This document shows, one piece after another, positions 6,566 through 64,000 of a stretch of DNA of 64,000 nucleotides (the first letter of the stretch is position 1; the number at the start of each line of letters is the position of its first letter). The stretch lies in the NCBI GenBank assembly GCA_945903275.1, contig CAMDNW010000005.1:1-64000 (forward strand). The letters are read 5' to 3'. The translations under genes and the position numbers were made by a program. This DNA comes from Thermoflexus hugenholtzii JAD2 (GTDB taxonomy: Bacteria > Chloroflexota > Dehalococcoidia > UBA2979). The notes beneath the pieces were generated by a model. The model worked only from the letters and a program-made list of their open reading frames with translations, made no database searches and had not been told where the DNA came from.

Positions 6566-7820
6566 TTAGACGACGCCAGCTACCTTGAGGTTGGCCAGTC
6601 CAAGCGCATCGATGCTGAAGTCGCCGTACACCGTTGCGTTGTCTTCGCCGAGGAGTGGCGCGCGGCGGTAGATACGCCACGGTGAGGCGGAATAGATGGC
6701 AGCGGCGCCAGAGTAGGTGAAGCGCTGGGTTAGTTCCGGATGCTCCACCTCAGGGAAGAAGCCCCGCAATCGGAAATGGTCATCGTCGAGTAAGTCATTC
6801 GGGGCGCGAACGATGCCCCACGGGGCACCGCCCTGTTGGGCGCTGTTGAACGCCTCGTCGGCAGAGACGGTGGCGATGAAGTTTCGCAGGTGATCGACGA
6901 AGCGCGCCTGGTGCTCTTGCAGGACGTTGGGGTCCTCGTACTGTGGGTCGTCCCACTCGCCAGCAGCATCGTGAGATTTCATCCACTCGACGACGCTCTT
7001 GAAGCGGCCTGCGTTGATGCCTCCGCCGGTGTTTACGAAACGACCGTCGCCGGTCGGGAACTGGGTGCGAGGCGTGCCTCCACGCGCGTTGGCATGGCGT
7101 CCGGTCTGCCGATGGACGACCTGCTTCGCGTATATCCATTGCGGCACGTGCGACTCGGTGGTGAGTGCACATGCTTCGTGCACCGAGCAGTCGAGGTACT
7201 GGCCTTCGCCCGTCAGGTTGCTGTAGTGGAGTGCCGCAGTAATGGCGATGTAGGCGTAGTAGGAACCCATGTGCCAGCCATTACCGCCGCCAGGCGCGGT
7301 CGGGGGCGGTATTCGGGGTCGTCCTCAGGTTGGTAGCCGCTGCCAGTCATCTGGCCGCCGCCTGCAAGGTGCAGCATGTCGGTAGTGAGGTAGTCACGCC
7401 ACGGCCCATCCTGCCCGAACGGCGTGAGCGAGCACATGACCAGCGATGGGTTCTGTGCTGATAGTGACTCGTACGTCAGGCCAAGCGCGGCAAGCGTGCC
7501 GGGCTGCGTGGTTTCGAGGAGCACGTCGGCCGTGGCGACCAGCGTGCGGAACAGATCGCGGCCCTCCTCGCGTTCGAGGTTGAGCGTGATCGAGCGCTTG
7601 CTGGTGTTGTAATGCCAGAAATAGAGCGAACGATCGAGGTGCTCGACATCTTGGTAGAACGGCCCAACGCGCCGTTCGGCGACACCACCTAGAGGTTCAA
7701 TCTTGGTGACGTGCGCACCGAAATCGGCCATGAGTTTGCCGCACCACTAGCCGATGCGGTCGCGACTTCGATGACGCGCAGGCCCGCGAGCGGCCCCGGA
7801 GGGGGCGAAGCGTTGGTCAC
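6566..7820 (-). pseudogene. CaiB/BaiF class III CoA-transferase, type B, broken
   Basis: The homology begins at a GTG at 7820 preceded by GGAGG and reads PPGPLAGLRVIEVA before the frame is lost. Compared with the intact type B paralogue at 48135, one base is missing after the GTCGC of the VIEVA region, a TAG replaces the CAG of GQWCG, and one C is missing from a C-run near 7300, where the frame moves from RPRPRL back to GSYYAYIAIT. The ORF track therefore shows it as two pieces (7213-7731 and 6566-7270). The rest is full length and well conserved to the C-terminus. It lies 24 bases downstream of an intact type A gene, the normal A-B pair arrangement. Two single-base deletions could be sequencing errors, but the TAG needs a substitution. 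Confidence 0.85.
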
Positions 7821-7844
7821 GAGACGCCCCCTCCGGTGTGCGGA

Positions 7845-9203
7845 TCAGCCGACTTTTTGGCCCTCGAGTGCTTCGATGAGATATGGCTCCACCGGGACGG
7901 ATTTCGGCCAGAAAGTGTTGTCTTCATAGCCTGCGCGTAGTTCCTCTTGAGTCACGCCGAGCATGCCGCAGAGGACATCGATGTTGTTCTCGCCACACAG
8001 CGGCCCGCCGCGGTCGACGGGCGTGGGCGTCTTCGACATTTTCCACGGAGCCTGCTGGATCGGCCACGTGCCGAGCACCGGATGCGGCGCCGGTTCGTAC
8101 ATGCCACGGTGCTTCAACTGGGGGTCGTGCTCGACACGATCCTCGCTGCTCTGCACCGCCATAGCGGGAACACCGCCTGACTGGCACATCGCGGTGAGTT
8201 CGTACTTATCCAGATTAGCGGCCCACTCTTGGATGTGCTCATCCAATGCTTCCTGGTGCTCGAGGCGGCCATTAAGTGTGTCGAAACGGGCATCGGCCCA
8301 GGCCGGGTTGCCCATGACGCGCCTGAGGTTTTGCCATTGCTCATCCGTCTCGCAGACGATCACAGACCAGTCGTTGTGGCCGTCGCCTTTGGTGCGGTAC
8401 GAGTTATGCGGTGCGGAGATCGGGCCGCGGTGATTGTACACCTTGGGGGTTCCGGGCCAGACGCTGCGGTCTCCGGGCGGGTAGCCCTCGCGACGCACGC
8501 CCCGGCCGTTCACGGTGAGGTCGAGCAAGGCGGGGCCGGTGAGGGTCATTGCAGCGGCGACCTGTGAGAGATCGACGTGCTGGCCTTCGCCGGTGTTGTG
8601 CCGGTGCTGCAGCGCAGTGAGCACCCCGATCGCACCGTACATGCCGCCGGTGTCGTCCATGTACGACCAGCCCCAGCCTGCCGGCTGCTTGCCAGGAAGG
8701 CCGGAGGTGAACGTCAGGCCAGAAAGCGCCTGTACCGATGGCCCCATCGTCTGGTACTCGGCACGCGGGCCGGTTTGGCCGAATCCAGCCATCGAGACGT
8801 AGATGATGTCCTTCTTGACGGCCTGCATCTCCTGGAAGGAGAGGCCCCACGACTTCAATACCCCGGCGCTGAAGTTCTCGATCACGACATCGGACTGCGC
8901 GATCAGATCCTTCGCGAGTTGGAGACCGCGAGGGGAGCGCAGGTTCAGCGTGGCGCTCCGTTTCATGGCGTGCATGTCGCTGAAGTGGCCATCGGAGTTC
9001 ATGCTCCGCGGCACGCCTTCAGGGGTGGTGCCCATACCGGGCACGTTACGCACGACTCGACCGGTGGAGCCGCCGATTGCCGGGTCGGGCCATTCGACCT
9101 TGATGACATCGGCACCGAGCAAGGCGAGCCAGCGGCAGGCCCACGGGCCAGCGCGCACCCATGTGAAGTCGACGACGCGTACTCCTTCGAGCGGTCTTAC
9201 CAT
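7845..9203 (-). CDS. CaiB/BaiF class III CoA-transferase, type A subunit
   Basis: The true start is the ATG at 9203 (MVRPLEGVRVVDFTW), preceded by AGAGGAGA; the ORF extension to 9491 has no homology. 452 residues with the CoA-transferase III layout: an N-terminal Rossmann-like half with ADVIKVEWP, ENFSAGVLKSWG and a YVSMAGFGQTGP strand, then YMDDTGGMYG near 181-190, whose first Asp aligns with catalytic Asp169 of formyl-CoA transferase, then TGEGQHVDLSQ. The enzyme moves CoA between carboxylic acids through aspartyl-CoA anhydride chemistry. The acid substrates are unknown. The adjacent type B gene is broken, so this subunit may act alone or borrow another B. Confidence 0.9.
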   Translation of the reverse strand: MVRPLEGVRVVDFTWVRAGPWACRWLALLGADVIKVEWPDPAIGGSTGRVVRNVPGMGTTPEGVPRSMNSDGHFSDMHAMKRSATLNLRSPRGLQLAKDLIAQSDVVIENFSAGVLKSWGLSFQEMQAVKKDIIYVSMAGFGQTGPRAEYQTMGPSVQALSGLTFTSGLPGKQPAGWGWSYMDDTGGMYGAIGVLTALQHRHNTGEGQHVDLSQVAAAMTLTGPALLDLTVNGRGVRREGYPPGDRSVWPGTPKVYNHRGPISAPHNSYRTKGDGHNDWSVIVCETDEQWQNLRRVMGNPAWADARFDTLNGRLEHQEALDEHIQEWAANLDKYELTAMCQSGGVPAMAVQSSEDRVEHDPQLKHRGMYEPAPHPVLGTWPIQQAPWKMSKTPTPVDRGGPLCGENNIDVLCGMLGVTQEELRAGYEDNTFWPKSVPVEPYLIEALEGQKVG

Positions 9204-9657
9204 CAGAGTCTCCTCTCGGCTGGCATCGGGGGCACCCCGACCTCGTCCGTGCCGCAGGCACGGACGGATTGCGGTAGGTATACCACTTTCGTGATGCGCC
9301 TCGAAAGGGGGGAGGCCGCCAAAGCGGGCCGGCTGGCGCGGGGAAGGCGAGCATCGCCGCTGCGGAGGAGGGTGCGGCGGACTGAGGTAGGGTGAAGGCA
9401 AGGAGCAGTGCAGTGCTGCGATCGTGGTCGCGGCCAAGCGTGCAGCGGGTGGAACAATACGAGGCGATGATAATCGGTGCTCCACGCGCACGGCACCACG
9501 CGGAACCTGTGTTGCGTGATCGTGGCTGGACAGGTTGTGTTTTTAGAACGCCTTGTGGGTGGATGCGTTCGTATCAGTCTCGTGGGGCGGGGGCCAGTCA
9601 GGCAGGGAAAGAGGATCAAGAAACTGGAAAGGTCTGTGCTGGCGAGAGGATCGGGCG
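9204..9657. other. Intergenic region with a short hairpin
   Basis: About 450 bases with no recognisable gene on either strand. A 10-bp perfect hairpin (CGTCCGTGCC-GCA-complement) lies at 9244-9266, some 40 bases upstream of the CoA-transferase start on the minus strand, so it would sit in that gene's leader. No homology is seen in the ORF translations. Confidence 0.4.
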
Positions 9658-10413
9658 CTAAGCCACTCGCTTTGCGACGACAACATCACGATCTAGGTAT
9701 TCGCCAAAGCCAGTGGTCACGTCGTAGACGATGCGCCCGCCGCACGTGATGAGCGTGATCCACTCTTCCCCGAACTTGCGGGCAGATGGATTCAGAATCT
9801 CGACCATGGGCATCTTGTTGATGTCGTACCGAATGTTGCTTGTGATTTGGTAGCGGATCGTGCGGCCGTCAGCCATGTTCACGAAGATCGATTCACCGAG
9901 TTTGGCCTGGTGCACCTGATAGAACGGGCCCTGTAGGTGGTTCCAAGTCTCATGTGCGGAGAAGATCGCGTTACCCGATTGGCCGGGCTTTGGGAAGTCA
10001 GGATAGAACCCAACTGAGTAGTTCCCATCGATAGGCGACTGCATTTCCCCGTTTACGACCCCCACGATTTCGATGTAGTGGTCGAGTCTCAATGTGGGAG
10101 CGCTGATGCGGGCGAGGCCGTACTGGTTCGCTGGCACGATGCCTGTATGCGGTGGTGGCGGTGGAAAGTAGAGAGGCGGCGTTCTGACAGGCGTTGGCGC
10201 TGCGGTTGGAGTGGGCGAGGGAGCCGGTGTTGGAGTGGTAGTTGGGGTTGATGTGGTGACGATGACGGCCATCTCGATCGGTTGCGTTGACTGTTTGGCC
10301 ATCACGCGAGTGCCTAGTACGACCGCTACGCCGAGCAGGGCGACGACCATCAGCGCCGCAGGGACCGCGATTCCGGGACGCTGACGCATGCGTTGTAGTA
10401 GGTTTCCTGCCAC
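9658..10413 (-). CDS. Membrane-anchored sortase (class D/E/F-like)
   Basis: 251 residues: a cytoplasmic tail, one N-terminal membrane helix (about 15-35), a long Pro/Thr-rich spacer (about 50-90), then a sortase beta-barrel. The catalytic triad can be placed: His154 in FSAHETW, Cys224 in the LITCGG motif (sortase TLxTC) and Arg249 near the end (VVVAKR). Sortases cleave a sorting signal in secreted proteins and join them to another protein or to the cell wall. No protein with an LPxTG-like signal is apparent nearby, so the substrate is elsewhere. The gene stands alone. Its presence fits a cell with one membrane and an exposed wall or surface layer. Confidence 0.88.
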   Translation of the reverse strand: MAGNLLQRMRQRPGIAVPAALMVVALLGVAVVLGTRVMAKQSTQPIEMAVIVTTSTPTTTPTPAPSPTPTAAPTPVRTPPLYFPPPPPHTGIVPANQYGLARISAPTLRLDHYIEIVGVVNGEMQSPIDGNYSVGFYPDFPKPGQSGNAIFSAHETWNHLQGPFYQVHQAKLGESIFVNMADGRTIRYQITSNIRYDINKMPMVEILNPSARKFGEEWITLITCGGRIVYDVTTGFGEYLDRDVVVAKRVA

Positions 10414-10600
10414 TTGTGTGTCGAGAATCCGGTACTGTTGCGTGAGTGTCCAGCCCCCATCCGCCGTTCAACCCTGCTTGGCCGCGTGTTATGCAGTCGT
10501 GCCGCCGACACACCTGTGCCAGTGGCGGTCTGCTCGTGCGGCGCCGCAGCGGCTACCGATGAGTGGATCATAGGGAGGACCGGTAGAGAGCGGGAGACGA

Positions 10601-10642
10601 GACACTGTGAGGGCGGGCCTCGTAGCCCGCCCTCACAGTGTC
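10601..10642 (-). terminator. Hairpin terminator of the first molybdenum-subunit gene
   Basis: An 18-bp perfect stem starting GACACTGTGAGGGCGGGC with a 6-base loop (CTCGTA) lies 17 bases after the stop codon at 10660. No U-tract follows on the minus strand. This is one of the longest perfect stems in the window. Confidence 0.75.
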
Positions 10643-10659
10643 GTGCTACGAGGCCATCG

Positions 10660-12975
10660 CTAGGAAGCGGCGTCGACACCCTTCTCGCCATCGCGGTCAA
10701 GGATCTGGTCGAGCAGTACGCGCGGCGTCGCAGGGAGCGAGCGCGGGCGTACGCCGATTGCATCGGCGATCGCGTTGGAGATGGCGCCCATGGGCGGCAC
10801 GATCGGGATTTCGCCGACGCCGCGGACGCCCATCGGGTGGCCGGGGTTCGGGATTTCCAAGACGATCGTGTCGATCATCGGGAGGTCGAGCGCGGTGGGC
10901 ATGCGGTAGTCCAACAGGCTGGCGTTCCGCAGCACGCCCTTGTCGTCGTAGAAGTACTCCTCGGTCAGCGCCATGCCGATGCCCTGTGCGGCGCCGCCCT
11001 GCAGCTGGCCCTCAACGTAGGAGGGGTGCATAGCCTTGCCGACATCGGTGACGCAGGTGTACCGGAGGATGGTGACCTTGCCGGTGTCCGTGTCGACCTG
11101 GACGTCCACGATGTGGCCGGCGTAGGTCGGGCCGCCGGTAGCCCCACCGGTGTCGATGTGGCCGGATACGGGGCCGCCAGTGCCCTGGAGCTGCGAGGCG
11201 AGCTGGCGGAATGTCATGGTCTTCGGCTTGCCGTCTTCGCTGGCGGGGCCGGTGAGCGATGCGTCCGGTTCCCATGTGACGTTGGCGACATCGGTCTCCC
11301 AGATCTTGGCGGCGCGCTCGATGAGGCGCTCCTTGATCTGTTTGGCGACCTTGTAAATGCTCGCCGAGGTGCCGGAGGCGGTGCCGCTGCCGGCGGTGAG
11401 CGTGCTGTAGCCGATCGCGTCCGTGTCCATTACTCGCACCTTGATGGACTCGTAGGGGATGCCGAGGACTTCGGCGACGGTCATGGCCTCGGTGGCGCGG
11501 AGGCCGCCGATGTCGACAGCGCCAGTGTTCACGCTGACCGTGCCGTCGTTGTTCACGACGGCGTTGATGCTGTGCGAGCCGGATCCGGCGTGCCAAAAGC
11601 CCATTGCGACGCCACGGCCAGTGTTGGAGCCGGTGAGTTCCGAGCGGTAGTGGGCGCTGTTCTTCAGGGACTCCATGACTTCCTGGTTGCCGCTCAGCGG
11701 GAGCACCATGCCGTTGGCGCGGCGGTCGCCCTGCTTGGAGGCGTTCTGGATGCGGAGATCCATCGGTTCGCGGTCGAGGCGCTCGGCGAGTTCATCGATG
11801 AGGGACTCGCAGGCGAAGGTCGGGGCGGGGACGCCGGGGGCGCGGTAGGCCGCGTTGCGGGGGCGGTTCACGACGACGTCGTAGCCATCCACCAGCGTGT
11901 TGGGGATGTTGTAGTTGCCGAAGGCGTGGTTGGCGCCGCCGCCGACACCGGAGCCCGGCCATGCGCCCGCCTCGTAGGCCATCCAGAACTGGGCGGCGAC
12001 GATGGTGCCGTCATTCTTGGCGCCCATCTTGCCTCGGATGTAGGTGCCGGAGGTGGGGCCGGTGGCCTGAATGACTTCCTCGCGGGTCATGGTCAGTTTG
12101 ACGGGGCGGCCGGTCTTCTGCGCGAGGATTGCAGCGAGCGGCTCACAGTAGAGGCGGTTCTTGCCGCCGAAGCCGCCGCCGATTTCCATCGGGATGGCGC
12201 GGATGCGGGAAGACGGGATCTTGAGGATCGTGGCGAGCGGGTCGCGGACGATCTGGAAGATACCCTGCGAAGACGAGTAGATGACGAGGCTGCCGTCCGG
12301 GTTCCACAACGCGGTGGCGGTGTGGGGCTCGATATAGCCTTGGTGGGCGGTGCCGGTGTGGAACTCGTCCTCAACGATGATGTCGCAGTCAGCCCAGGCG
12401 GCGGCGACATCGCCCATGGCGAGTTGCAGGTGGCTGGCGATGTTGGTGGGCTTGTCCTCGGCGGCGTCCTTGGGGGCGCCCATTGGCTCGGCGGTGCGCA
12501 TGGTGGGGTGGAGGATGGGCGAGTCGGGCTGCATGGCGCGCTCGACGGTCATCACCGGGTCGAGGACTTCGTACTCGACCTCGATGAGAGCGATGGCGTC
12601 CTCGGCGATGTGCGGGTCGGTGGCGGCGACGGCGGCGACCGGGTGGCCGTAGTAGAGGGCCTTGTCGGTGGCGATGAAGTTGCTGATGAGGAAGCGGCGC
12701 GTGGTCGCGCCGGGGCCCGCGCCGGTGCGCTCGTCGTTCACGTCTGGGAAGTCCGCGGCGGTGACGACAGCCTCGACGCCGGGGAGGGCGAGGGCTTTCG
12801 AGACATCGATGCTCTTGATAATGGCGTGGGCGTGGGGGCTGCGCACGAGGCGCGCGTGGAGCATGCGCGGGAGGTGCACGTCGGCGCCGTAGTCGGCGCG
12901 GCCAGTGACCTTGTCGATGCCGTCGGGACGGATGGGGCGGGTGCCAATTATGCGGAACTTCTCAGTGGTGGTCAT
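10660..12975 (-). CDS. Xanthine dehydrogenase/aldehyde oxidase family molybdenum-binding subunit
   Basis: 771 residues, the usual length for a stand-alone large subunit. The N-terminal Ald_Xan_dh a/b-hammerhead domain (GRADYGADVHLPRMLHARLV) is followed by the MoCoBD domains. Visible cofactor motifs are GGGFGGK near 266-272, AYRAPG near 376-381, and a C-terminal GVGEIPIVPP near 718, whose Glu is the conserved catalytic base. It hydroxylates an unknown aldehyde, N-heterocycle or acyl-CoA substrate. The form I CO-dehydrogenase loop AYxCSFR is absent. The expected FAD and 2Fe-2S subunits are not adjacent. A diverged paralogue lies at 29386-31674. The start ATG follows GAAAGGGTGACC. Confidence 0.9.
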   Translation of the reverse strand: MTTTEKFRIIGTRPIRPDGIDKVTGRADYGADVHLPRMLHARLVRSPHAHAIIKSIDVSKALALPGVEAVVTAADFPDVNDERTGAGPGATTRRFLISNFIATDKALYYGHPVAAVAATDPHIAEDAIALIEVEYEVLDPVMTVERAMQPDSPILHPTMRTAEPMGAPKDAAEDKPTNIASHLQLAMGDVAAAWADCDIIVEDEFHTGTAHQGYIEPHTATALWNPDGSLVIYSSSQGIFQIVRDPLATILKIPSSRIRAIPMEIGGGFGGKNRLYCEPLAAILAQKTGRPVKLTMTREEVIQATGPTSGTYIRGKMGAKNDGTIVAAQFWMAYEAGAWPGSGVGGGANHAFGNYNIPNTLVDGYDVVVNRPRNAAYRAPGVPAPTFACESLIDELAERLDREPMDLRIQNASKQGDRRANGMVLPLSGNQEVMESLKNSAHYRSELTGSNTGRGVAMGFWHAGSGSHSINAVVNNDGTVSVNTGAVDIGGLRATEAMTVAEVLGIPYESIKVRVMDTDAIGYSTLTAGSGTASGTSASIYKVAKQIKERLIERAAKIWETDVANVTWEPDASLTGPASEDGKPKTMTFRQLASQLQGTGGPVSGHIDTGGATGGPTYAGHIVDVQVDTDTGKVTILRYTCVTDVGKAMHPSYVEGQLQGGAAQGIGMALTEEYFYDDKGVLRNASLLDYRMPTALDLPMIDTIVLEIPNPGHPMGVRGVGEIPIVPPMGAISNAIADAIGVRPRSLPATPRVLLDQILDRDGEKGVDAAS

Positions 12976-13261
12976 CGGTCACCCTTTCGGCGTGGTCTCA
13001 CGGATATGCGGGACAGTATAGCGCCTGCCCATTACCGGTCTCAGCCACGAGCTGAACGTGCGAGGATCGTGTAGTAGAGCGCGTGCAGGTGCATTTGATG
13101 GCCTCGACGAGGGGATTTGGGGTGTGGTGCGCTTCGGAGGTGGATTCGGCACGGTAGGCCGCGAACGGCCCACCGCGCGCCACAATCGGAAGCGATGGGG
13201 GGCGTGGCGGTCTATCATCCGCGCGGCGGATGCCGAAGGTGGGTGGGGATAGGACGCGAAC

Positions 13262-13810
13262 GTGACGAGTGAACCATTGCAGCCGCGTGCGAGGGCGCTG
13301 GCGCGGGAGGCGCGGCTGCTGCTGACTGAGGAGATATTGCCTGCAGGGGCGTTTGTGTCGTTGCCGGTGCCGGTGTTGCGGGACGGTGTGGTGGCGGCCT
13401 CGTTCTTTGGGGCGATGACGGTGGCTAGCGAGGATGGGACAAACGAGGAGATGTACGCACCGGCGGTGGAGTTGATGCTGGACTGGGCGACGGGGCAGCA
13501 GATCGATCTGCGGGTGCTGCGGCCAGCGGTTCCGACGGCGGGGTCGATGCCGGTGGCGGAGATTCGCCCGGTGAACTTCCAGTTGCGGATGCCTCCGGGG
13601 ATGGAGGCGAACTTGGAAGCGCAGATTGAGCGGCTGCACGGGCTGCTGGATGCGGCGGTGCGGCGGTATGGGGTGTCGCCGCAGCGGCCGCCGATGGACG
13701 ATGGGACACGGTACCTAGAGCAGTGGGAGGACCTGGTGCCTCGGACGGCGCGGGCGTACTACACGGCGCTGAATCCTGACTTCTTCGCGTGGGTGGCGCG
13801 GGGGCGGTAG
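13262..13810 (+). CDS. Hypothetical protein, 182 residues
   Basis: GTG start at 13262; no family is recognised. The protein is soluble, with no signal peptide or membrane helix. It contains a mixed alpha/beta N-terminal half (GAFVSLPVPVLRDGVVAASFFGA), a possible helix (EEMYAPAVELMLDWATG), a coiled segment around EANLEAQIERLHGLLDAAVRRY and an aromatic C-terminus (RAYYTALNPDFFAWVARGR). Codon use and the lack of competing stops support it as real. It is transcribed divergently from the molybdenum-subunit gene and has its own hairpin downstream. Confidence 0.7.
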   Translation: MTSEPLQPRARALAREARLLLTEEILPAGAFVSLPVPVLRDGVVAASFFGAMTVASEDGTNEEMYAPAVELMLDWATGQQIDLRVLRPAVPTAGSMPVAEIRPVNFQLRMPPGMEANLEAQIERLHGLLDAAVRRYGVSPQRPPMDDGTRYLEQWEDLVPRTARAYYTALNPDFFAWVARGR

Positions 13811-14396: not shown

Positions 14397-15587
14397 TTAC
14401 TCCTTGGTGGCGATGAAGGAGGAAGCACTGCCGAAGGGGCCCGTTTCGCAGAGGGCGACCTGTGCGTTGGGAACCTGCCGGACACCGGCGGTGCCCATCA
14501 TCTGCATCGCGGTCTCCATGACATGCCCGAAGCCGTGCACGCGACCGCTGCCGAGGTTACCGCCGGACATGTTGAGCGGGTCGGTGCCGCCGCGACCGAT
14601 GGTGGCCGGCTGCGCCCACGCGTGGGCCTCGCCCTGCGGCGCGAAGCCGAAGGCTTCGATCCACATCCATACCATCGGGCTGAAGCCGTCATAGACGTGC
14701 TTCACGTTGATGTCACTCGGCTTCTGGCCGGCGCTGTCGTAGAGGTTGCGGGCGTGCCACGAGTTCATCTCTTCGAGGTTCTCGAGGGGTTCGGCGGCGC
14801 CGGTGCCGCGGTGGTGCCACGGGATGGCGGCCATGCCCGAGACGTAGCCACCGGGGTGTGGGGTGTTCTTGGCGCGATCCTCGGTGGTCATGACGACTGC
14901 GAGGACGCCGTCACACGGCATGTCGTTGTCGAAGATGTTCATCGGGTAGCCGATGAGGCGCGCGTTCAGGTAGTCCTCTTCGGTGATGAGGCGGCCTCGC
15001 CACACCGACTGGGGGGTGTCTTGGCCGTTCTTGTGGGCGGTGATGACGTAGCCGGCCATCTCCTCGCGCTTGGCGTTGTACTTGGCCAGATAGCGTTGGT
15101 AGGTGACCGACTGGCCGGAGCCGCCGACGCCGTGGCCGTAGGAGGTAGTGAAGGCGGAGTTGCCGGGAGCACGGTTGCTGCTGATCTGGCGGTAGCGCAC
15201 GCCAGCCGGGTGGTGGCCGGTGCGGATGACGAGCGCGTAGTTCACGGCGCCCGCGCCGAGGGCCAGCGCGGCGCAGTGGATGCCACTGCAGGAGCCGGCG
15301 GCGACGGCTTCTGGCTGGAGCCAGAACTTGATGTTCTTCCACGGCATGACCGACATCATCTGTGAGACGTCGAGCCAGACGGTTGGGCCCTGGACGTTGC
15401 CCCAGTTGGGGTTGGCCCAGATGAAGATGCCGTCGATGTCCTCGACTTGGAGGCCAGCATCGGCGATCGCCATGGTGGCCGCTTCCTTGGCGTTGCTCGC
15501 CTTGGTGCGCGGCATGTACCGGCGGATCATGGTCCAGCCAGCACCCACGAATACCGGACGCTTGCCGGGGGGGAACTGAATTGTCAT
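14397..15587 (-). CDS. SCP-x/thiolase-like lipid-transfer protein
   Basis: The ATG at 15587 (MTIQFPPGKRP), with GGAGG ten bases upstream, gives 396 residues. The fold is thiolase-like, with the nucleophile-site Cys at about residue 100 in AAGSCSGIHCA and family segments DVSQMMSVMPW, GSGQSVTYQRY and the late GGNLGSGRVHGFGH loop. Such proteins catalyse thiolytic or retro-aldol cleavage of CoA thioesters, frequently together with a DUF35 protein. No DUF35 gene is adjacent, unlike the second thiolase at 50187. It is monocistronic, with its own hairpin. Confidence 0.85.
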   Translation of the reverse strand: MTIQFPPGKRPVFVGAGWTMIRRYMPRTKASNAKEAATMAIADAGLQVEDIDGIFIWANPNWGNVQGPTVWLDVSQMMSVMPWKNIKFWLQPEAVAAGSCSGIHCAALALGAGAVNYALVIRTGHHPAGVRYRQISSNRAPGNSAFTTSYGHGVGGSGQSVTYQRYLAKYNAKREEMAGYVITAHKNGQDTPQSVWRGRLITEEDYLNARLIGYPMNIFDNDMPCDGVLAVVMTTEDRAKNTPHPGGYVSGMAAIPWHHRGTGAAEPLENLEEMNSWHARNLYDSAGQKPSDINVKHVYDGFSPMVWMWIEAFGFAPQGEAHAWAQPATIGRGGTDPLNMSGGNLGSGRVHGFGHVMETAMQMMGTAGVRQVPNAQVALCETGPFGSASSFIATKE

Positions 15588-55624: not shown

Positions 55625-58264
55625 TCACGCCGTGTTGACTCCCGTCGGCCCTGCCGCAACTGAATCGATCTCTGCGAGGATTTCCGCGGTGTGCTCACCG
55701 AGCATCGGGGCACGCCGCGAGATGGCCGTGGGTGACTTGCCATAGATGGAGGCTGCACCCGGGTACGTGAAGGAGCGCCCGAGCTCGGGGTGCTCCACCT
55801 GCACGAAGAAGCCGCGGTCGGCCCAATGGGGGTCGTTTAGGTTGTCTTCAGGTGCCCGCACGGCGCCGCACAAGAACTCGCGGTCTTGCGCGCTGTGGTA
55901 GACCTCCTCGGACGGCATGCTGCGGATGAAGCGTTCGAACACGTCCGCGATATGGTCAGTCTCAGCTGCTGCGGTTGCCTGATCGGCGTACTTCGGGTCA
56001 TGCAGATCGTGTTCGAAACCCTTGCTCGTCATCCACTCGATGAGCACTGGCAGGCGGTCGTGGGTGATGCGCGTGGCGCCGAAGTTGACGTAGCGGCCGT
56101 CTGCGCAGAGGTGCTGTGTCTTCCTCACAGCGAAATTCATCGAGTCCGCGGCCGCATGGCGGCCCGTCTGGCGCTTCACAACCTGGCGGTTGTAAATCCA
56201 TGTCGCGACGTGCATCTCGGTCGTCAGAGCGAGCGCGCCGTGCACCGAGGTATCGATGTACTGTCCCTCTCCCGTGAGGTCACGGTGCGCGATGGCGGCC
56301 GCGATCGCTATGTAGGCGTAATGCGAGCCGGTGTGCCAGGCGTTGCCGCCACCAGGGGCGATGGGCGGCGCGTCGGGCATGTCGCCCTCGTCGTATCCGC
56401 AGCACGCCATCTGGCCTCCAGCGGCCATGTGTGTCAGATCGGAGGCTTTGTAATCACGCCACGGACCTGTCTGGCCGAAGTCCGTGAGCGAGCACATCAC
56501 GAGGCGTGGGTTGATCCGGTGCAGCGTGTCGTAGGACAGGCCGACCGAGGCCATATACCCGGGCGTCCATGTCTCGAGGAGCACGTCGGCCGTTGCGACG
56601 AGACGCTTCAACCGATCCTGGCCTTCAGCTGTCTCGAGATCGAGCGTGATGCTGCGCTTGCTCGTGTTGTAATGCCAGAAATGCAGGCTCCGCTCCGGAT
56701 TGGGCACATCCTGATAGAACGGTCCGATGGAGCGCTCCGGTGCACCGCCCGGAGGCTCAACCTTGATGACATCCGCCCCCGCGTCAGCGAGGAGTTTTCC
56801 GCACCACTGTCCTTTCTCGTCGGCGAGCTCGATCACTCGCAAGTCGCCGAATGCGCCGTCGCTGTAGCGGCGGGACGAGCGGTCGACCACGGGCCCCGGC
56901 GGTGTCTGGCCGATCGGCATTGGCATCAGGCCGGTGCCTTCGAAGAGGTACGGGTCTTTCGATTCGTGGCTCGGCCAGTATTTGTTCTGCTCGAATCCCG
57001 CGAGGAGTTCGTCCTCGGGCGTTCCGAGCAGCTCCCTGAGCACACGTGCGGTGTGCTCACCGAGCAGCGGCGCGTGGTGGTCAGCGCGCACTTCGTTCAC
57101 TGACATCTTGAACGGAGACTGTTGCATGAGGTTCGTCCCCACGACCGGATGATGCACTGGCGCGAACAGTTCCTGATGCCTTAGTTGGAGGTCGTGTTCG
57201 ACGCGGTCCTCGTTCGACTGGACCGGTAACGCGGTCACGCCGGCCGTCTGGCACAGCGCGGCGAGTTCATACTTACCGAACTGCTTCGCCCATTCACCGA
57301 TCTGCTGGTCGATCTCGACTTGGCACTTGATACGGCCCTCCAGCGTTGCTAGTGCCTGGTCGGTGGCCCAGTCGGGTGAGCCCATGAGAAGCACGAGAGC
57401 ATGCCACTCCTCGTCGCTGACGCATGTGATCGCGCACCAGTCGTTGTAGCCGCCTCGGTGCGTGCGATAAGCGTTGTGCGGGACCATCTTCGGGCCTCGA
57501 TAGTTGTCCAGAAGCGGCGCATCTGGCCAGACCGAACGATTGCCGGGCGGGAAGCCCTGCCGACGGGAGCCGCGGCCGTTGACGGTGAGGTCCAGCCAAG
57601 CGGGGCCGAGTAGTGTCATCGCTGCCGCCACCTGCGACAGGTCGACGTGCTGGCCTTCGCCGGTCTGGTTTCGATGATGGAGTGCGGTCAGCGTGCCGAT
57701 GAGGCCATAGAGACCGCCGGTGTCGTCCATGTACGACCAACCCCAACCAGCTGGCTGCTCATCCGGAAGGCCGGACAGGTGCGTGAGGCCAGATAGCGCC
57801 TGCACGATGGGACCAGCGGTCTGATGATGATGGTTGCGCCCCGTGTGGCCGAGACCGGCCATCGATACGTAGATGATGTCCGGTTTGATCTGCGCCATCT
57901 CCTCGTAGCCGAGGCCCCACGACTGCAGGACCCGAGACGAGAAGTTCTCAATCACGATGTCGGACATCGCGATGAGACGCTTGGTCGCCGCGAGACCTTC
58001 GGGCGACCGCACGTTGAACGTGACGCCGAGCTTGTTGTTGTGCATGTCGTTGAAGTTGCCGCCACGAGCGAAAGCCGCCTGCGTGCCAGGCGTCGGTGCC
58101 GGGCCAGGACGCGGACCTCCGCCCATTGCGCCCGGGCCTGGCCGCGGCCACTCGATCTTCACCACCTCGGCACCCATCGCGCCCATCCAGCGTGTGGCCC
58201 AGGGGCCAGCGCGCACCCAAGAGAAATCGGCGACACGGATGCCGGCGAGGGGCCTGCGAGTCAT
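55625..58264 (-). CDS. Fused A-B CaiB/BaiF class III CoA-transferase
   Basis: 879 residues, twice the family length. Residues 1 to about 455 are a complete type A domain (VADFSWVRAGPW, GWGWSYMDDTGGLYG, TGEGQHVDLSQ). After a linker around PIGQTPPGPVVDRSSRR, residues from about 475 form a complete type B domain (ELADEKGQWCGKLLADAGAD, RSLHFWHYNTSKRS, PGGGNAWHTGSHYAY without the catalytic Asp). The order A-B equals that of the separate genes at 52889/54247, only about 120 bases away on the opposite strand. The fusion argues that A and B form one enzyme in a 1:1 ratio. Confidence 0.93.
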   Translation of the reverse strand: MTRRPLAGIRVADFSWVRAGPWATRWMGAMGAEVVKIEWPRPGPGAMGGGPRPGPAPTPGTQAAFARGGNFNDMHNNKLGVTFNVRSPEGLAATKRLIAMSDIVIENFSSRVLQSWGLGYEEMAQIKPDIIYVSMAGLGHTGRNHHHQTAGPIVQALSGLTHLSGLPDEQPAGWGWSYMDDTGGLYGLIGTLTALHHRNQTGEGQHVDLSQVAAAMTLLGPAWLDLTVNGRGSRRQGFPPGNRSVWPDAPLLDNYRGPKMVPHNAYRTHRGGYNDWCAITCVSDEEWHALVLLMGSPDWATDQALATLEGRIKCQVEIDQQIGEWAKQFGKYELAALCQTAGVTALPVQSNEDRVEHDLQLRHQELFAPVHHPVVGTNLMQQSPFKMSVNEVRADHHAPLLGEHTARVLRELLGTPEDELLAGFEQNKYWPSHESKDPYLFEGTGLMPMPIGQTPPGPVVDRSSRRYSDGAFGDLRVIELADEKGQWCGKLLADAGADVIKVEPPGGAPERSIGPFYQDVPNPERSLHFWHYNTSKRSITLDLETAEGQDRLKRLVATADVLLETWTPGYMASVGLSYDTLHRINPRLVMCSLTDFGQTGPWRDYKASDLTHMAAGGQMACCGYDEGDMPDAPPIAPGGGNAWHTGSHYAYIAIAAAIAHRDLTGEGQYIDTSVHGALALTTEMHVATWIYNRQVVKRQTGRHAAADSMNFAVRKTQHLCADGRYVNFGATRITHDRLPVLIEWMTSKGFEHDLHDPKYADQATAAAETDHIADVFERFIRSMPSEEVYHSAQDREFLCGAVRAPEDNLNDPHWADRGFFVQVEHPELGRSFTYPGAASIYGKSPTAISRRAPMLGEHTAEILAEIDSVAAGPTGVNTA

Positions 58265-58541
58265 GGCGTATTCCGTTCCGCCTCACGCGCGAGGTAATGG
58301 TAAGGCGGCCGCATGCTATCGCTTTTATGAGAGCCGTGGGGCGTCAGCACTGAAACGAATTTGGCGACGGTGTGGGCGCTGGCTTGCAGGCGTCGGGACA
58401 GGTGGCGTGACCGATGCGGTCGTTGGTGGCGCAGCCGGGAGCTACGCGTACCTAAAAGCGAGATGCGGACGCCGGGGTCTAGGAGGGGAGCCCGCCTGCC
58501 GAGGATGTCGCCTGGTCAGGCGAACACAGGGGTGAGGGGAT

Positions 58542-58587
58542 TGGAGCGGGAGGCCGGATTCGAACCGGCGATCCGCTGCTTGGGAAT
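58542..58587 (-). tRNA. 3' fragment of tRNA-Gly(CCC), anticodon loop to CCA
   Basis: The minus strand reads TTCCCAA (anticodon loop, CCC), GCAGC, a 5-base variable loop, a perfect T-arm GCCGG-TTCGAAT-CCGGC, acceptor strand CTCCCGC, discriminator T and CCA. The bases upstream of the loop (CATCA) cannot pair with GCAGC, and no D-arm or 5' acceptor strand is present. It is therefore a partial tRNA, of the extent typical for attachment sites of tyrosine integrases. Confidence 0.8.
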
Positions 58588-58594
58588 GATGAGA

Positions 58595-59560
58595 CTATCT
58601 GTCTCTCACGATCGCCAGCTCGAGCAGCTCGGAAGGTCGGTCCGGATCGTCAGCGTCGACGGTGGCCAGCATATTTCCCGTGCTTGCGTCGAAGACGAGG
58701 CCTTCGAGCTTGGCCACGAGCGGCGCCCCATGCTCGTCGATCACGTGGCACCACTCGACTTGGCAACTGCTGCTCATTGCGCCGTGAATCCAGCCGACCA
58801 CGCTCCCGGTGACGTGGCCATCATCGTAGGCACTCGTTGTTGCCTCGGCGGTTGCGGCAAAGGCGAGCGCGTCGCCGATGGCCTCAAGCTCGGTCAGATG
58901 CAGCGGCGTACCGCCGAGGTGTCCGAGGTGCAAGGGATGCCATTCGATCGATGGCAGCGGCGCCCCATGGGGATCGTCGATCAGCCGCAGGAACGTGCTC
59001 ACTGGGAGCCGGGTCACCGCGTCCACGGTCGGCACGGCGTCGTTGCCGATGTCGCCGCCGCGATTGCCGAGCACGAGCGTGTCGCCCGAGACCGCTGCCC
59101 CTTCGAGGTTGAGGACACCACGGCCGAGCACGGGCTGGCGGAGCGCCTCGTAGAGACGAGGGAGCGCCACGACTCGCGGCAGCAACGTCGCGTTGTCGAT
59201 GACGACTACCTGCTGGCGCACTGCGAGGCCGTTGTCGGATCCGAACGCCACCAGCCGACCCTCGACGGAGATGACGCATTCGAGATCGAGCTTGTCCGCC
59301 TTATTGCCGCGGCGGGTGTCGAATTGGCGTCGCTGTGCGGGTGCGTGAGGGATGGTGATCGGCTGGGTGCGGCCTGACACGGGGTCGACGAGCCCGACGA
59401 AACTCGTATCGTCCGAAACCGTGGCAAGGTGCTGGCCGAACCAGGTGATCCCGCTCGCAGCTCGGACATGGGCGGGCCGGTCGAGCGTTTCGTCTACGCC
59501 GCCGACGTAGTGCATTGTGACGCGGCGCACGACGCGAAAGGTCTGCCGTAGGTTCTCCAC
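58595..59560 (-). CDS. Predicted beta-propeller-like protein of unknown function
   Basis: The ORF runs from 59848, but that start overlaps the divergent ArsA gene; the first homologous-looking region starts at a GTG at 59560 (321 residues), and this start is uncertain. The sequence is beta-rich with repeating blade-like units (ITWFGQHLATVSDDTSFVGLVD, LVAFGSDNGLAVRQQVVVID, LVLGNRGGDIGND, KLEGLVFDASTGNMLATVD). No signal peptide is seen, so it is probably cytosolic. The function is unknown; lactonase or esterase-like phytase propellers are possible relatives. It lies just inside the tRNA fragment. Confidence 0.55.
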   Translation of the reverse strand: MENLRQTFRVVRRVTMHYVGGVDETLDRPAHVRAASGITWFGQHLATVSDDTSFVGLVDPVSGRTQPITIPHAPAQRRQFDTRRGNKADKLDLECVISVEGRLVAFGSDNGLAVRQQVVVIDNATLLPRVVALPRLYEALRQPVLGRGVLNLEGAAVSGDTLVLGNRGGDIGNDAVPTVDAVTRLPVSTFLRLIDDPHGAPLPSIEWHPLHLGHLGGTPLHLTELEAIGDALAFAATAEATTSAYDDGHVTGSVVGWIHGAMSSSCQVEWCHVIDEHGAPLVAKLEGLVFDASTGNMLATVDADDPDRPSELLELAIVRDR

Positions 59561-59722
59561 GGGCCGGATGGTACGCCGAGTGCCTGCTGTCGCGTACCTC
59601 ACGCAGCGGCGAGACAGACTCCCATATCCAGTTGTCATGCGAGAAGACTTGGTAAGCAGGCCCACTGCTATCCTCAGCCTGCTTTCTTCGCGTGCCAGTC
59701 GCTCCGAAGGAGATGGACCTCG

Positions 59723-60943
59723 ATGACTCGTGTCATCCTCTACACGGGTAAGGGCGGAGTTGGGAAGACCTCGATCGCTGCGGCCACGGCGCTCGCTGCG
59801 TCGCGTCGCGGACTGCGCACCGTCGTGCTGAGCACCGACTCGGCGCATAGCCTAGGCGATTCCTTTGACCTCGAGCTCACACCCGAGCCAACTCTGATCG
59901 CGGAGCGGCTCTGGGCACAAGAGTGCGACGTTTACTTCAACATGGAGAAGTACTGGGGCACCGTGCAGCGGTGGATGGAGTCTCTGCTGGCCTGGGAGGG
60001 ATTTAACCGCGCGCTCGCAGATGAAATGGTCGTCCTCCCCGGGATGGACGAGTTGGCAAGCCTCCTGTGGATCCTCGAGCATCAGCGGAGCGGGCAGTAC
60101 GACCTCGTCGTCGTGGACTGCGCGCCTACTGCGGAGACCTTCCGGCTGCTGAGCTTTCCGGAAGCCGGGCGGTGGTGGCTCGAGAAAATCTTCCCGGTCA
60201 GTCGACGGGTGTCGGGCTTGGCGCGTCCTCTCCTCAAGCGGTTGACTAGCATGCCCCTCCCGGACGACTCGGTCTTCGAGGCGACGCGCGACCTGATGGC
60301 ACGGATAGAGGAGATTCAGGCAGTGCTAGCTGACCCGACAACGACGAGCGTACGGCTCGTGACGAACCCGGAGCGGATGGTAATCAAGGAGACTCAGCGC
60401 GCGTACACGCTTCTGGGGCTGTATGGGTATCTGGCGGACCTCGTGGTCTGCAATCGCGTCCTACCGGCTGAGGCGTTCGAGGGTAGCTACTTCGCAGCGC
60501 GTGCCGCCGACCAGGAACGCTATCTCGCGCAGATCGATGACCTCTTCAGCCCGGTCCCGTTGAAGTTCGCGAGACAGTTCGATCGCGAGCTGGTGGGCTT
60601 TGATGCCTTGGCAGCCCTCGCGGAATCTCTATTCGGAGACGAAGACCCGACGCAGTTCTACTACGATCGACCGCCGTTCCAGGTGCGAAGCGTCACCCCC
60701 GGTGACGCATCGGATGCCGACTCGGCTGTGCCGGAGGCAACGCAGTACGAGCTCAAGCTGACAATCCCCTTCGTCGAACGCGAGGGTCTGGAGTTGGTGA
60801 CGGTCGGCGAGGAACTGGTGTTGGAAGCCGGGCGGCATCGACGGAATATGCTGTTGCCACGGGTACTGCAGTCGCGTCCGGTGCTCGGTGCGCGAATGCG
60901 CGGAGGCACGCTGCACGTGTGGTTCGGAGGCCGTGACAGATGA
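59723..60943 (+). CDS. ArsA/GET3-family ATPase
   Basis: 406 residues. The deviant Walker A GKGGVGKTS is at 9-17; a switch I-like STDSAHSLGD follows near 37, and the switch II-like DCAPTAETFRLLSFPE block near 134 is typical of the family. The C-terminal 90 residues (LKLTIPFVEREGLELVTVGEELVLEAG...) form the HSP20-like/alpha-crystallin domain found in bacterial ArsA proteins that lack an ArsB partner. No arsenite pump gene is near. A small coiled-coil protein overlaps its stop by 4 bases and an FAD enzyme follows, so it is more likely part of a protein-handling or membrane-associated system than arsenite export. Confidence 0.9.
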   Translation: MTRVILYTGKGGVGKTSIAAATALAASRRGLRTVVLSTDSAHSLGDSFDLELTPEPTLIAERLWAQECDVYFNMEKYWGTVQRWMESLLAWEGFNRALADEMVVLPGMDELASLLWILEHQRSGQYDLVVVDCAPTAETFRLLSFPEAGRWWLEKIFPVSRRVSGLARPLLKRLTSMPLPDDSVFEATRDLMARIEEIQAVLADPTTTSVRLVTNPERMVIKETQRAYTLLGLYGYLADLVVCNRVLPAEAFEGSYFAARAADQERYLAQIDDLFSPVPLKFARQFDRELVGFDALAALAESLFGDEDPTQFYYDRPPFQVRSVTPGDASDADSAVPEATQYELKLTIPFVEREGLELVTVGEELVLEAGRHRRNMLLPRVLQSRPVLGARMRGGTLHVWFGGRDR

Positions 60944-61200
60944 ACGAACAGGAACGCATCGCCGAGCTGGAGAGCCGTATCGCAGAACTCGAGCGAAAGC
61001 TCGATGAGCCATCAATGGCGCGGATATTCGAGACTTTGATGACGCCGGATGCGCGTACCCGCCTTCGCGCGCTGGCACGTGAGCAGCTGCTGCTGATGGC
61101 GGAGGTCTCACGCGGGCTAGCGGAGTTGTTGTCACCGTCCCCGACCGAGCCCAGCACCAGTCAGGAAGAGCGGCACAGCCGACATGTCCCCGTTGACTAG
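60940..61200 (+). CDS. Small coiled-coil protein between ArsA and the FAD enzyme
   Basis: 86 residues, overlapping the ArsA stop by ATGA. A heptad run EQERIAELESRIAELERKLD (3-22) predicts a coiled coil; a second amphipathic helix follows (RTRLRALAREQLLLMAEVS), then a short polar tail. No known family can be named with certainty, but the tight overlap on both sides (17 bases with the next gene) makes it a real part of the operon and a candidate adaptor between the ATPase and the oxidoreductase. Confidence 0.75.
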   Translation: MNEQERIAELESRIAELERKLDEPSMARIFETLMTPDARTRLRALAREQLLLMAEVSRGLAELLSPSPTEPSTSQEERHSRHVPVD

Positions 61201-62995
61201 CGCGGGGTTCAGCGAGGAGATGGCCGTGGAGTCCCCGCCTGACCTCGAAGTCATCATCGTCGGGGCAGGGATGTCGGGCCTCGCTGCGGCGACCACACTG
61301 ACGGACGCGGGGTTGCGTGTCCGGGTGTTCGAGCGTGAGGACTCGCCGGGTGGGCGAGTCCGGTCGGACTCGGTCAACGGATTTACGATCGACCGTGGAT
61401 TCCAAGTGTATCTGACCGCCTACCCACGCTCGGGACAATTGCTCGACCTCGACGCACTGGCGCTCCAGCAGTTTGAGCCGGGGGCGATGATCTGGACCGG
61501 AGAGGGTTTCACGACGGTCCGCGATCCTCTGCGCCGCCCTCGTGCGCTCCGCGAGTCGATCCGCTCATCAGCCGGGTCGCTCCTCGATAAGGTGCTTGTA
61601 CTAGCGCTCCGTGCCTCAGTCATGCAGCCTACGCTGGAGGCGCTCTTCCACCGTCAGGAGACGACGACAGCGGAGGCGCTGCGGCGACGCGGCTTCAGTG
61701 CAACCTTCCAGCGGCGCTTCCTGCGGCCCTACCTCGCCGGAATCTTCCTCGATCGAGATCTGCAGACCTCATCGCGGATGTTCGAATTCGTCTTTCGGAT
61801 GTTTGGTCAAGGCGCGGGCGCGGTGCCGGCGGCAGGGATGGGCGCGATCCCGGCGCAACTCGCAGGGCGACTCCCAGCCGGGACACTGGAAACTGGCATC
61901 GAGGTGGCGGAGGTATCCACGGACGGTCCCGGCGTCACGCTGGCCGACGGCCGACGTCTCAACGCTCGCTGCGTGGTGCTTGCGGGTGCGTCGCCGCTCG
62001 CAGACCGGCTGAGCGGGCGCGTCGAAGGGAGTCGCACATGGCGAGCCGCGACCAGTCTCTCCTATGACGCGCCTCGATCGCCGGTAGGCGAAGGGATCCT
62101 TGTCCTGAACGGTACTGGCAAGGGGTTGGTCAACCACTTGGTGTGCATGAGCGACGTGGCGCCGTCCTATGCGCCGCCGGGCCGAGCACTGCTGAGCGTG
62201 ACGGTTATCGGCGAGCCGCCTCTGGACGACGACGCGCTGGAGCAGGTTTGTCGGGCAGAGCTCGGTGGCTGGTTCGACCCGGAGACGGTGAGCGAGTGGC
62301 GATTGCTCCGTGTGGACCGGATCCGAGAAGCGCTGCCCGCGGATGTGCACATGACAGCCACTCCAGATGCACCCGAGGTCGCACCGGGCGTTTTCCTCGC
62401 CGGGGACTACCTCGCGATGCCGTCGATCGAAGGCGCGATCAGCTCCGGGCTCGCGGCAGCGCGGGCGACGGCAAAGCGGCTTGGCGTCGGGGCCGCCGTA
62501 GCGGATCTTCCTGCCGGCAGCCCGTCCTTCGAACGGCGGTTCACAGTGGATGCCCCGGTGACGGCTGTGGCTGCCTTCCACGAAGGACCGGATGCGCTGG
62601 CCCGGCTGCAGCCACCGCTCAGCGGGGCGCGATTCCTCCGCGTCGACCCCCTCGGCGAGGGGTCGATCACCGAATTTGAACTCGGGCCTGGCCCGCTACG
62701 GATCCGCTGGACCGCACACCATCGGGACGTGTGCCCGGGCCGTGGCTTCACCGATGTGATGGCGCGAGGTCCGATGCGATTCTGGACCCACCGACACGAA
62801 TACCGATCTCTCGGCCCGGCCACGGCCGAGGTGAGCGACCGGATTTGGTTCCAGCATCCGCAAGGGCCCCGAGGGATCCTGACACGTCTGCTGTTCAACC
62901 CGCTCTCCCTCGGTGTGCTGTTCCGGTTCCGAGCGAATGCGACTCGCCGTGCCATGAAGTCGCCTCACGAAGTTGCCACAACGTTCGACGAGTGA
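61184..62995 (+). CDS. FAD-dependent amine-oxidase-like protein fused to an SRPBCC domain
   Basis: 603 residues. Residues about 20-435 form a flavin-containing amine oxidase/phytoene-desaturase-like domain: IIVGAGMSGLAAATTL with the dinucleotide motif at 27-32, FEREDSPGGRVRSD, and a C-terminal FAD region FLAGDYLAMPSIEGAISSG near 405. From about 448 a SRPBCC (ligand-binding, polyketide-cyclase-like) domain follows: SFERRFTVDAPVTAVAAFHE to the end. The combination suggests a hydrophobic substrate that is bound and then oxidised or desaturated. It is the third gene of the ArsA operon. The internal ATG at 61220 is an alternative start. Confidence 0.85.
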   Translation: MSPLTSAGFSEEMAVESPPDLEVIIVGAGMSGLAAATTLTDAGLRVRVFEREDSPGGRVRSDSVNGFTIDRGFQVYLTAYPRSGQLLDLDALALQQFEPGAMIWTGEGFTTVRDPLRRPRALRESIRSSAGSLLDKVLVLALRASVMQPTLEALFHRQETTTAEALRRRGFSATFQRRFLRPYLAGIFLDRDLQTSSRMFEFVFRMFGQGAGAVPAAGMGAIPAQLAGRLPAGTLETGIEVAEVSTDGPGVTLADGRRLNARCVVLAGASPLADRLSGRVEGSRTWRAATSLSYDAPRSPVGEGILVLNGTGKGLVNHLVCMSDVAPSYAPPGRALLSVTVIGEPPLDDDALEQVCRAELGGWFDPETVSEWRLLRVDRIREALPADVHMTATPDAPEVAPGVFLAGDYLAMPSIEGAISSGLAAARATAKRLGVGAAVADLPAGSPSFERRFTVDAPVTAVAAFHEGPDALARLQPPLSGARFLRVDPLGEGSITEFELGPGPLRIRWTAHHRDVCPGRGFTDVMARGPMRFWTHRHEYRSLGPATAEVSDRIWFQHPQGPRGILTRLLFNPLSLGVLFRFRANATRRAMKSPHEVATTFDE

Positions 62996-63026: not shown

Positions 63027-63290
63027 TTACAGCATCAGCGCCGTGGGGAAGTCAGGGATACTCTCCCAGCGTCCCGGATCGATCGCCCGCATCACCGCGA
63101 TCGTCTTGATAACTTCAGGGTTGGCGAGGCCATGCGGTGCCTTCCCCGTCAGCACCATCAGCACGTTCTCCGCCTGCCGCTTCGAGCTCTCAACCGCGGT
63201 GACCGGCGACACGGAGGCGATATGAGGCGTGATGATCAAGTTGTCTAGGCTCAGCAACGGATCCTCTGCCGGAGGGAAGTGCAAAAGTTT
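63027..63290 (-). pseudogene. D-2-hydroxyacid dehydrogenase, C-terminal fragment
   Basis: The minus strand reads PPAEDPLLSLDNLIITPHIA near 63250, the C-terminal block of D-isomer-specific 2-hydroxyacid dehydrogenases with the catalytic His in TPHIAS, and goes on to a natural end (DFPTALML). Nothing of the NAD-binding domain or N-terminus remains; the open frame before it (RWRKLLHF) is not homologous and runs into the GNAT stop at 63302. Confidence 0.7.
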
Positions 63291-63301
63291 CCTCCAACGA
63301 T

Positions 63302-63829
63302 TCAGGTCAGTTCCGTGGCGAGCAGGTCGAGAAGAAGGCCATCCCGCCACGTGCCGTCGGGATCGCGCTGGTACTGCCGCATAATTCCGACCCGACGGAA
63401 GCCTACCTTCTCGTAGGCGCGGATCGCTCGCTCGTTGTGGGCGACTGGGTCGATGATGAGGCGGTGGTGCTCGAGGTCTTGAATGAGGTGCCGCGCAAGC
63501 GTTCGGACCGTGTCGGTACCTAGCCCGCGATTGTGGTACGGCGCGCCTAAGAACAGATCGATCCCTGCGCTGTGGTACTCGGGGGAGACCTCCTCGTGGT
63601 ATTGGATGAAGCCGACCGTTTCGCCTTCGTAGACCACCGCGAAGAATCCCTGGTGTGGCTTCCCTGCGGCCTTCCTTCGCAGATAGTCCTCGGTCGCGTC
63701 GGGGTACCAGCGGGCGACGTCTGGGTGCGCCGCCAGCTCCGCGATCCTGGAGGCGTCACTCGCCACCAAGGTCCGCAGGACGACGCGCTCGCCACGCAAT
63801 TCAATCAGGCTTGGCGGCTGTTCGTTCAT
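63302..63829 (-). CDS. GNAT N-acetyltransferase, RimJ/RimL type
   Basis: ATG at 63829 (MNEQPPSLIELRGERVVLRTL) with AGAGG upstream gives 175 residues. The acetyl-CoA loop is GLGTDTVRTLARHL near 112, preceded by the beta-4 strand GIDLFLGAPYHNRG, and the C-terminal NERAIRAYEKVGFRRVG is the usual end of the fold. It acetylates an N-terminus, polyamine or small amine. No operon partner is visible. Confidence 0.88.
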   Translation of the reverse strand: MNEQPPSLIELRGERVVLRTLVASDASRIAELAAHPDVARWYPDATEDYLRRKAAGKPHQGFFAVVYEGETVGFIQYHEEVSPEYHSAGIDLFLGAPYHNRGLGTDTVRTLARHLIQDLEHHRLIIDPVAHNERAIRAYEKVGFRRVGIMRQYQRDPDGTWRDGLLLDLLATELT

Positions 63830-64000
63830 CAAGAACCTCTTCTTCGGCAAGAATCTCTCTTACCTACTAGTGCGGGCCGCGAGCAAACTTTCGGGTCAGC
63901 CAGTACACCGTGTCAGCGCGTTCCAGCCTCTCTCACTATGCGCAGGCGAACGCGAGCGTCGTGCGGGGCCGGCGTACGGGGGCGTCCTCGGGACGGGTTA
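63830..64000. other. Right-edge non-coding sequence
   Basis: About 170 bases upstream of the GNAT gene; no gene, repeat or clear promoter is recognisable before the window ends. Confidence 0.4.

Follow-up and report, generated by a model that had tools for sequence, protein, structure and literature searches.

The window, comprising the first 64,000 bases of contig 5 (C5; bases 1–64000) in the genome assembly of a lake bacterium of the Chloroflexota (here G000; 1.75 Mb in 29 contigs), contains a truncated tRNA gene close to its right end. Read on the minus strand from 58586 to 58542, the 45 bases TTCCCAAGCAGCGGATCGCCGGTTCGAATCCGGCCTCCCGCTCCA correspond to the 3′ half of a tRNA-Gly(CCC) and include anticodon-loop bases 32–38 (TTCCCAA), the 3′ anticodon strand, the variable loop, an intact T arm, the 3′ acceptor strand, the discriminator and an encoded CCA; the 5′ half is missing. 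Aligned with the corresponding half of the intact tRNA-Gly(CCC) genes in four relatives (G008, G016, G030 and G061), the fragment is identical at 42 of 45 positions and differs at three. ARAGORN reports no tRNA in the window, the Rfam tRNA model matches the fragment only partially (13.7 bits), and an Rfam search around the site returned nothing relevant. The initial annotation had recognized a tRNA-Gly(CCC) 3′ part running from the anticodon loop to CCA, the extent typical of tyrosine-integrase attachment sites, and the sequence bears this out; the span given, 58542–58587, is correct to within one base, with base 58587 no longer tRNA-like and the right end therefore at 58586. A chance origin can be excluded, since there are six more copies elsewhere in the genome and a control pattern gave 0 matches.

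The fragment was described as lying between a CoA-transferase block and an ArsA operon, and these flanks are as stated, except that a further gene separates the fragment from arsA. Beyond the 3′ end of the fragment, on its far side, is a double CoA-transferase family III gene (55625–58264, minus strand). On the other side is a DUF6929/DUF6910 gene (58595–59848, minus strand; PF22000, E 1.8e-47) with an uncertain start codon and the domain at about 58610–59470, followed by an ArsA-type ATPase (59723–60943, plus strand; PF02374 and PF17886), a flavin amine oxidoreductase (61184–62995, plus strand; PF01593) and a GNAT acetyltransferase (63302–63850, minus strand; PF13302). Beyond this last gene, and extending up to 78.0 kb, are genes for a thiolase, a peptide-binding protein, a dehydrogenase, an amidase and MFS transporters. 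There are two incidental features of the window. First, a minus-strand open reading frame at 63027–63350 resembles, by eye, a 2-hydroxyacid dehydrogenase in its C-terminal part only and is perhaps a truncated gene. Second, a 129-base direct repeat, 100% identical, occupies positions 1–129 and 2085–2213 and possibly represents an assembly or mobile-element edge.

A pattern search of the genome reveals seven diverged copies of the tRNA-Gly(CCC) 3′ half, and their arrangement has several features. First, five of the seven are on contig 5, at 58542, 77982, 81138, 89508 and 99172 (58.5, 78.0, 81.1, 89.5 and 99.2 kb), all on the minus strand; the remaining two (C13:32697 and C26:4428) are on the minus strands of their own contigs. 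Second, all four further copies on contig 5 are to the right of the window fragment and none is to its left; they divide the DNA from 58587 to 99.2 kb into segments of about 19.4, 3.1, 8.3 and 9.6 kb, and the last copy is within about 200 bases of the contig end. Third, genes on these segments encode MFS transporters, an ABC exporter pair and peptide-binding proteins, and none of the four has an integrase. The window was noted earlier to have no integrase, which holds equally for the rest of contig 5, where neither an integrase gene nor a recognizable remnant is present; a search for remnants of integrase or Rep genes on contigs 5, 13 and 26 gave chance-level matches only. An approximately 120-base repeat (85%) is present just beyond the copy at 89508 (G000:C5:88407–88529 and 89377–89493).

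No integrase was found adjoining any of the fragments in this genome, the five PF00589 matches all being on other contigs, and no intact tRNA-Gly(CCC) was found in the assembly. The 40 tRNA genes passing the Rfam threshold include Gly(TCC) and Gly(GCC) and lack Gly(CCC), and a tRNA-Gly(CCC) 5′-half pattern has no match in the genome; the gene may have been lost or may simply be unassembled, and we infer that an intact copy lies beyond the right end of contig 5. With neither an integrase on contig 5 nor an intact tRNA-Gly(CCC) in the assembly, an attachment-site pair is not demonstrable in this genome. A pairing of the contig 13 fragment with an intact tRNA-Gly(TCC) 5 kb away was considered and rejected, as the two are different isoacceptors by sequence. 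The genome has further tRNA islands, with an integrase adjoining tRNA-Phe (G000:C20:3282–3836) and a broken integrase piece adjoining tRNA-Cys (G000:C22:13335–13466).

Intact tRNA-Gly(CCC) genes with adjoining integrases, suggested at the outset as a check on the attachment-site assignment, were not found in this assembly, which has no intact tRNA-Gly(CCC), and are present in relatives. In relatives of the same family, an intact tRNA-Gly(CCC) is directly followed by integrase-bearing elements, each ending in this tRNA 3′ half, to which an element arm is fused at the anticodon loop; the integrases are PF00589 tyrosine recombinases. The clearest array is in G061 (contig 93, L214), in which an intact tRNA-Gly(CCC) (7656–7731) is followed about 110 bases later by an integrase (7839–8774), then by Rep_trans (9519–10703), cargo and a fragment at 12638; a second part consists of another integrase (12759–13760), 62% identical to that of G030, and a fragment at 14446. 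The order in G030 (contig 145) is tRNA-Gly(CCC), integrase, a Rep-like protein (assigned without a Pfam run), two DNA methylases, a fragment and another fragment. A tRNA border with a tyrosine recombinase is therefore present in both G061 and G030, while the contig of the window has no recombinase. In G028 an intact tRNA is present together with two elements, approximately 4.4–4.7 kb in length and one with a type I restriction subunit, each closed by a fragment that corresponds to the 3′ half of the G028 tRNA itself (one with two changes at the extreme 3′ end), and in G014 an integrase is located about 180 bases 3′ of a fragment. Related elements also use the isoacceptor tRNA-Gly(TCC), a side observation from G023 and G028, in which this tRNA has a similar scar or integrase (L222, 6445–6519 and 8028; L216, 8931–10046). 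A fragment in a genome of another family (L215, G078:C35, 9914) has exactly the sequence of the tRNA half found in genus g9 and differs from the tRNA-Gly-like gene of G078 itself, pointing to either transfer or a misbinned contig.

The junctions themselves are informative. Nearly all of those aligned are at the anticodon loop, with the 3′ end retained to CCA, and at many junctions in relatives an element arm resembling GCACAGCGCATATGGGATAATGC immediately precedes TTCCCAAGC; of 294 genomes of the class, 4 have close matches to this type of arm (up to three mismatches). The tRNA-half fragments of G028 are fused to an arm that is also present in G000, G024 and G078, and thus across genera. A motif, AGCAGATAACTG (up to two mismatches), is located at offset −66 from the core in nine arms and at +119 in three opposite arms, with 17 matches near 30 sites where about 1.5 are expected. 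Paired integrase arm sites would be expected to be placed in this way, which suggests that the motif may be bound by the integrase. In the genome containing the window the arm resembling GCACAGCGCATATGGGATAATGC (class 1) is found at the copies at C5:89508 and on contig 13. Three copies, namely that in the window and those at 77982 and 99172, instead have another arm (class 2, AGTCTCATSA), which has three matches in this genome and none in the 43 other family genomes (44 searched). At the window copy the arm GATAGTCTCATCA (58587–58599, minus strand) is in common with C5:78026 and C5:99216 and scores 10 against a shuffled null in which a score of at least 7 occurs at 1e-4; the motif AGCAGATAACTG was not found there. 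The arm pattern and the integrase have no matches in viral contigs. Elsewhere in the genome, a complete class-1 arm and core TTCCCAAGCAG, 89–99% identical to G028, is followed by non-tRNA DNA (G000:C26:8518–8656) and represents either insertion into a different site or an orphan arm. A short MITE-like repeat (approximately 146 bases; terminal inverted repeats near GGTTCCGTCAGAACTCAGGGC) is also present on this contig (about 9471–9616) and in L150 (9487–9632), and an end similar to that of the repeat adjoins class-1 arms.

The fragment is thus very likely an attR-type scar of tyrosine-integrase recombination at the left end of a tandem island built up by serial insertion. The attachment-site reading is supported by the integrase-bearing elements with similar junctions in relatives, by the arm that the window copy has in common with two other copies on contig 5, and by the cargo alongside. 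The five same-strand scars in tandem place the window copy at the left end of the island, and the suggestion that it marks one end of an old genomic island gains support, with an island larger than envisaged, extending from 58.5 kb to the right contig end. In the simplest model, an element carrying a tRNA-Gly(CCC) 3′ half would recombine with the host gene in its anticodon-loop region through a tyrosine integrase. The host tRNA would be rebuilt with the 3′ half of the element, and the displaced host half would remain at the element's far end. Repeated insertion at the rebuilt tRNA would push older elements outward and generate the five same-strand copies, the window copy being the outermost seen and the island starting at 58587 and continuing to the right as far as 99.2 kb or more. 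The integrase belonging to the arm class of the window copy and the orientation of the window element would follow the pattern of the relatives. Counting against this explanation are the lack of an integrase on contig 5 and of an intact tRNA-Gly(CCC) in the assembly, the flat composition, without a G+C step at the 58.5 kb boundary, the short arm at the window copy, in which only 10–14 bases are common with the sister copies and the AGCAGATAACTG motif is missing, and the arrangement in G002, a Lake Zurich genome (ZH-chloro-G3; exact match to QWRD01000011 at three tested stretches; PMC6169038), in which DUF6929 lies 3′ of a fragment that faces the opposite way, a position not explained by the simple model. 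No relative was found to have an empty site at this locus, where the same-genus genomes G001 and G002 have too little gene order in common with it.

A variant of this explanation, sharing its scar mechanism rather than competing with it, is that the copies bound small integrase-free cassettes, mostly of transporters, moved in trans by an integrase encoded elsewhere, and are not relics of complete elements. It accords with the transporter and exporter content of the four integrase-free segments and with the two stretches, DUF6929 (86% DNA identity) and a second (85–86%), that are common to G002 and located next to fragments in a different order. However, loss of the integrase after insertion gives the same picture, and no complete or trans-acting integrase of the group was found in the assembly, from which it may be missing; we regard the variant as possible, if doubtful. 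The fuller proposition, that in this freshwater Chloroflexota genus tRNA-Gly(CCC) 3′ halves bound small integrase-free, transporter-rich cassettes that are inserted and shuffled in trans, with loss of the target tRNA gene itself and only its 3′ halves left, is unlikely.

Returning to a serially built island with the window copy as its left end, there is the question of which side of the fragment the element occupies. We infer that it is on the right, the DUF6929 and ArsA side, since in G061, G030 and G028 the closed element sits on the arm (5′) side of the fragment, which is the right here, and DUF6929 lends support in that it is present in only 2 of 44 family genomes, adjoins a tRNA-Gly 3′ fragment in both, and in G000 has its stop codon within the junction arm. 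By this geometry the ArsA-type ATPase, flavin amine oxidoreductase and GNAT acetyltransferase genes would all be on the element side. The converse, with the element on the CoA-transferase side and old chromosome on the ArsA side, would be consistent with the position of DUF6929 in G002 and with the DNA directly 3′ of the fragment (58452–58541, minus strand), which is similar to that following a fragment in G024 on its 3′ side (contig 88; local score 25 versus a maximum of 15 in 100 shuffles) and may be a shared flank or P′-arm. This resemblance makes it possible that a further element begins to the left, but the closed elements of relatives and the presence of four more copies on the right and none on the left make the converse quite improbable. 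Finally, that the fragment is what remains of a tRNA-Gly(CCC) gene disrupted by a deletion or rearrangement, or was multiplied by ordinary duplication, with no site-specific integrase involved in either case, would fit the short window arm and the lack of an integrase on the contig and of an intact tRNA-Gly(CCC) in the assembly, but is very improbable given that junctions are nearly all at the anticodon loop with the 3′ end kept to CCA, that a like junction in relatives belongs to elements with an integrase adjoining an intact tRNA, and that different hosts join their own tRNA half to a common arm.

The island that we favor, built by serial insertion at tRNA-Gly(CCC), resembles several known systems. 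In Dehalococcoides, ssrA islands are in tandem behind one RNA gene and bounded by repeats of the 3′ end of that gene, and about half have no integration module (McMurdie et al. 2011, PMC3146451). Those islands are likewise in the class Dehalococcoidia, and are similar in their tandem placement at the 3′ end of a single RNA gene and in having segments without an integrase; they differ in having a tmRNA target, a 20-bp repeat and the serine recombinase DsiB, as opposed to tRNA-Gly(CCC), a 45-base repeat and – in relatives – PF00589 tyrosine integrases, and the present island is thus not one of them. Freshwater Methylophilaceae have tRNA-Lys 3′-end repeats and tycheposons (PMC10872708), and these tRNA-bounded flexible islands are comparable in their metabolic cargo and, as far as the relatives G061 and G030 are concerned, in their border tRNA gene and tyrosine recombinase; the tRNA and the phylum are different. 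There are also similarities to integrative and mobilizable elements and chromosomal islands with tyrosine integrases at tRNA 3′ halves, namely, in the relatives, the tRNA-adjoining integrase, Rep_trans, restriction-modification cargo, anticodon-loop junction and paired arm motifs; in contrast to these, the window copy is a relic without an integrase. No description of this tRNA-Gly(CCC) element family was found in the literature searched, and while the proposed mechanism is ordinary and the site is of a known kind, the larger family of transporter-rich tandem islands is apparently undescribed. These observations indicate that tRNA-Gly(CCC) is a recurrent integration hotspot in uncultured lake Chloroflexota, with an identified group of integrases and conserved attachment arms. 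By means of the arms, elements can be recognized in fragmented metagenome-derived genomes even without an integrase, and the scars mark transport and catabolic genes that were probably gained as cargo.
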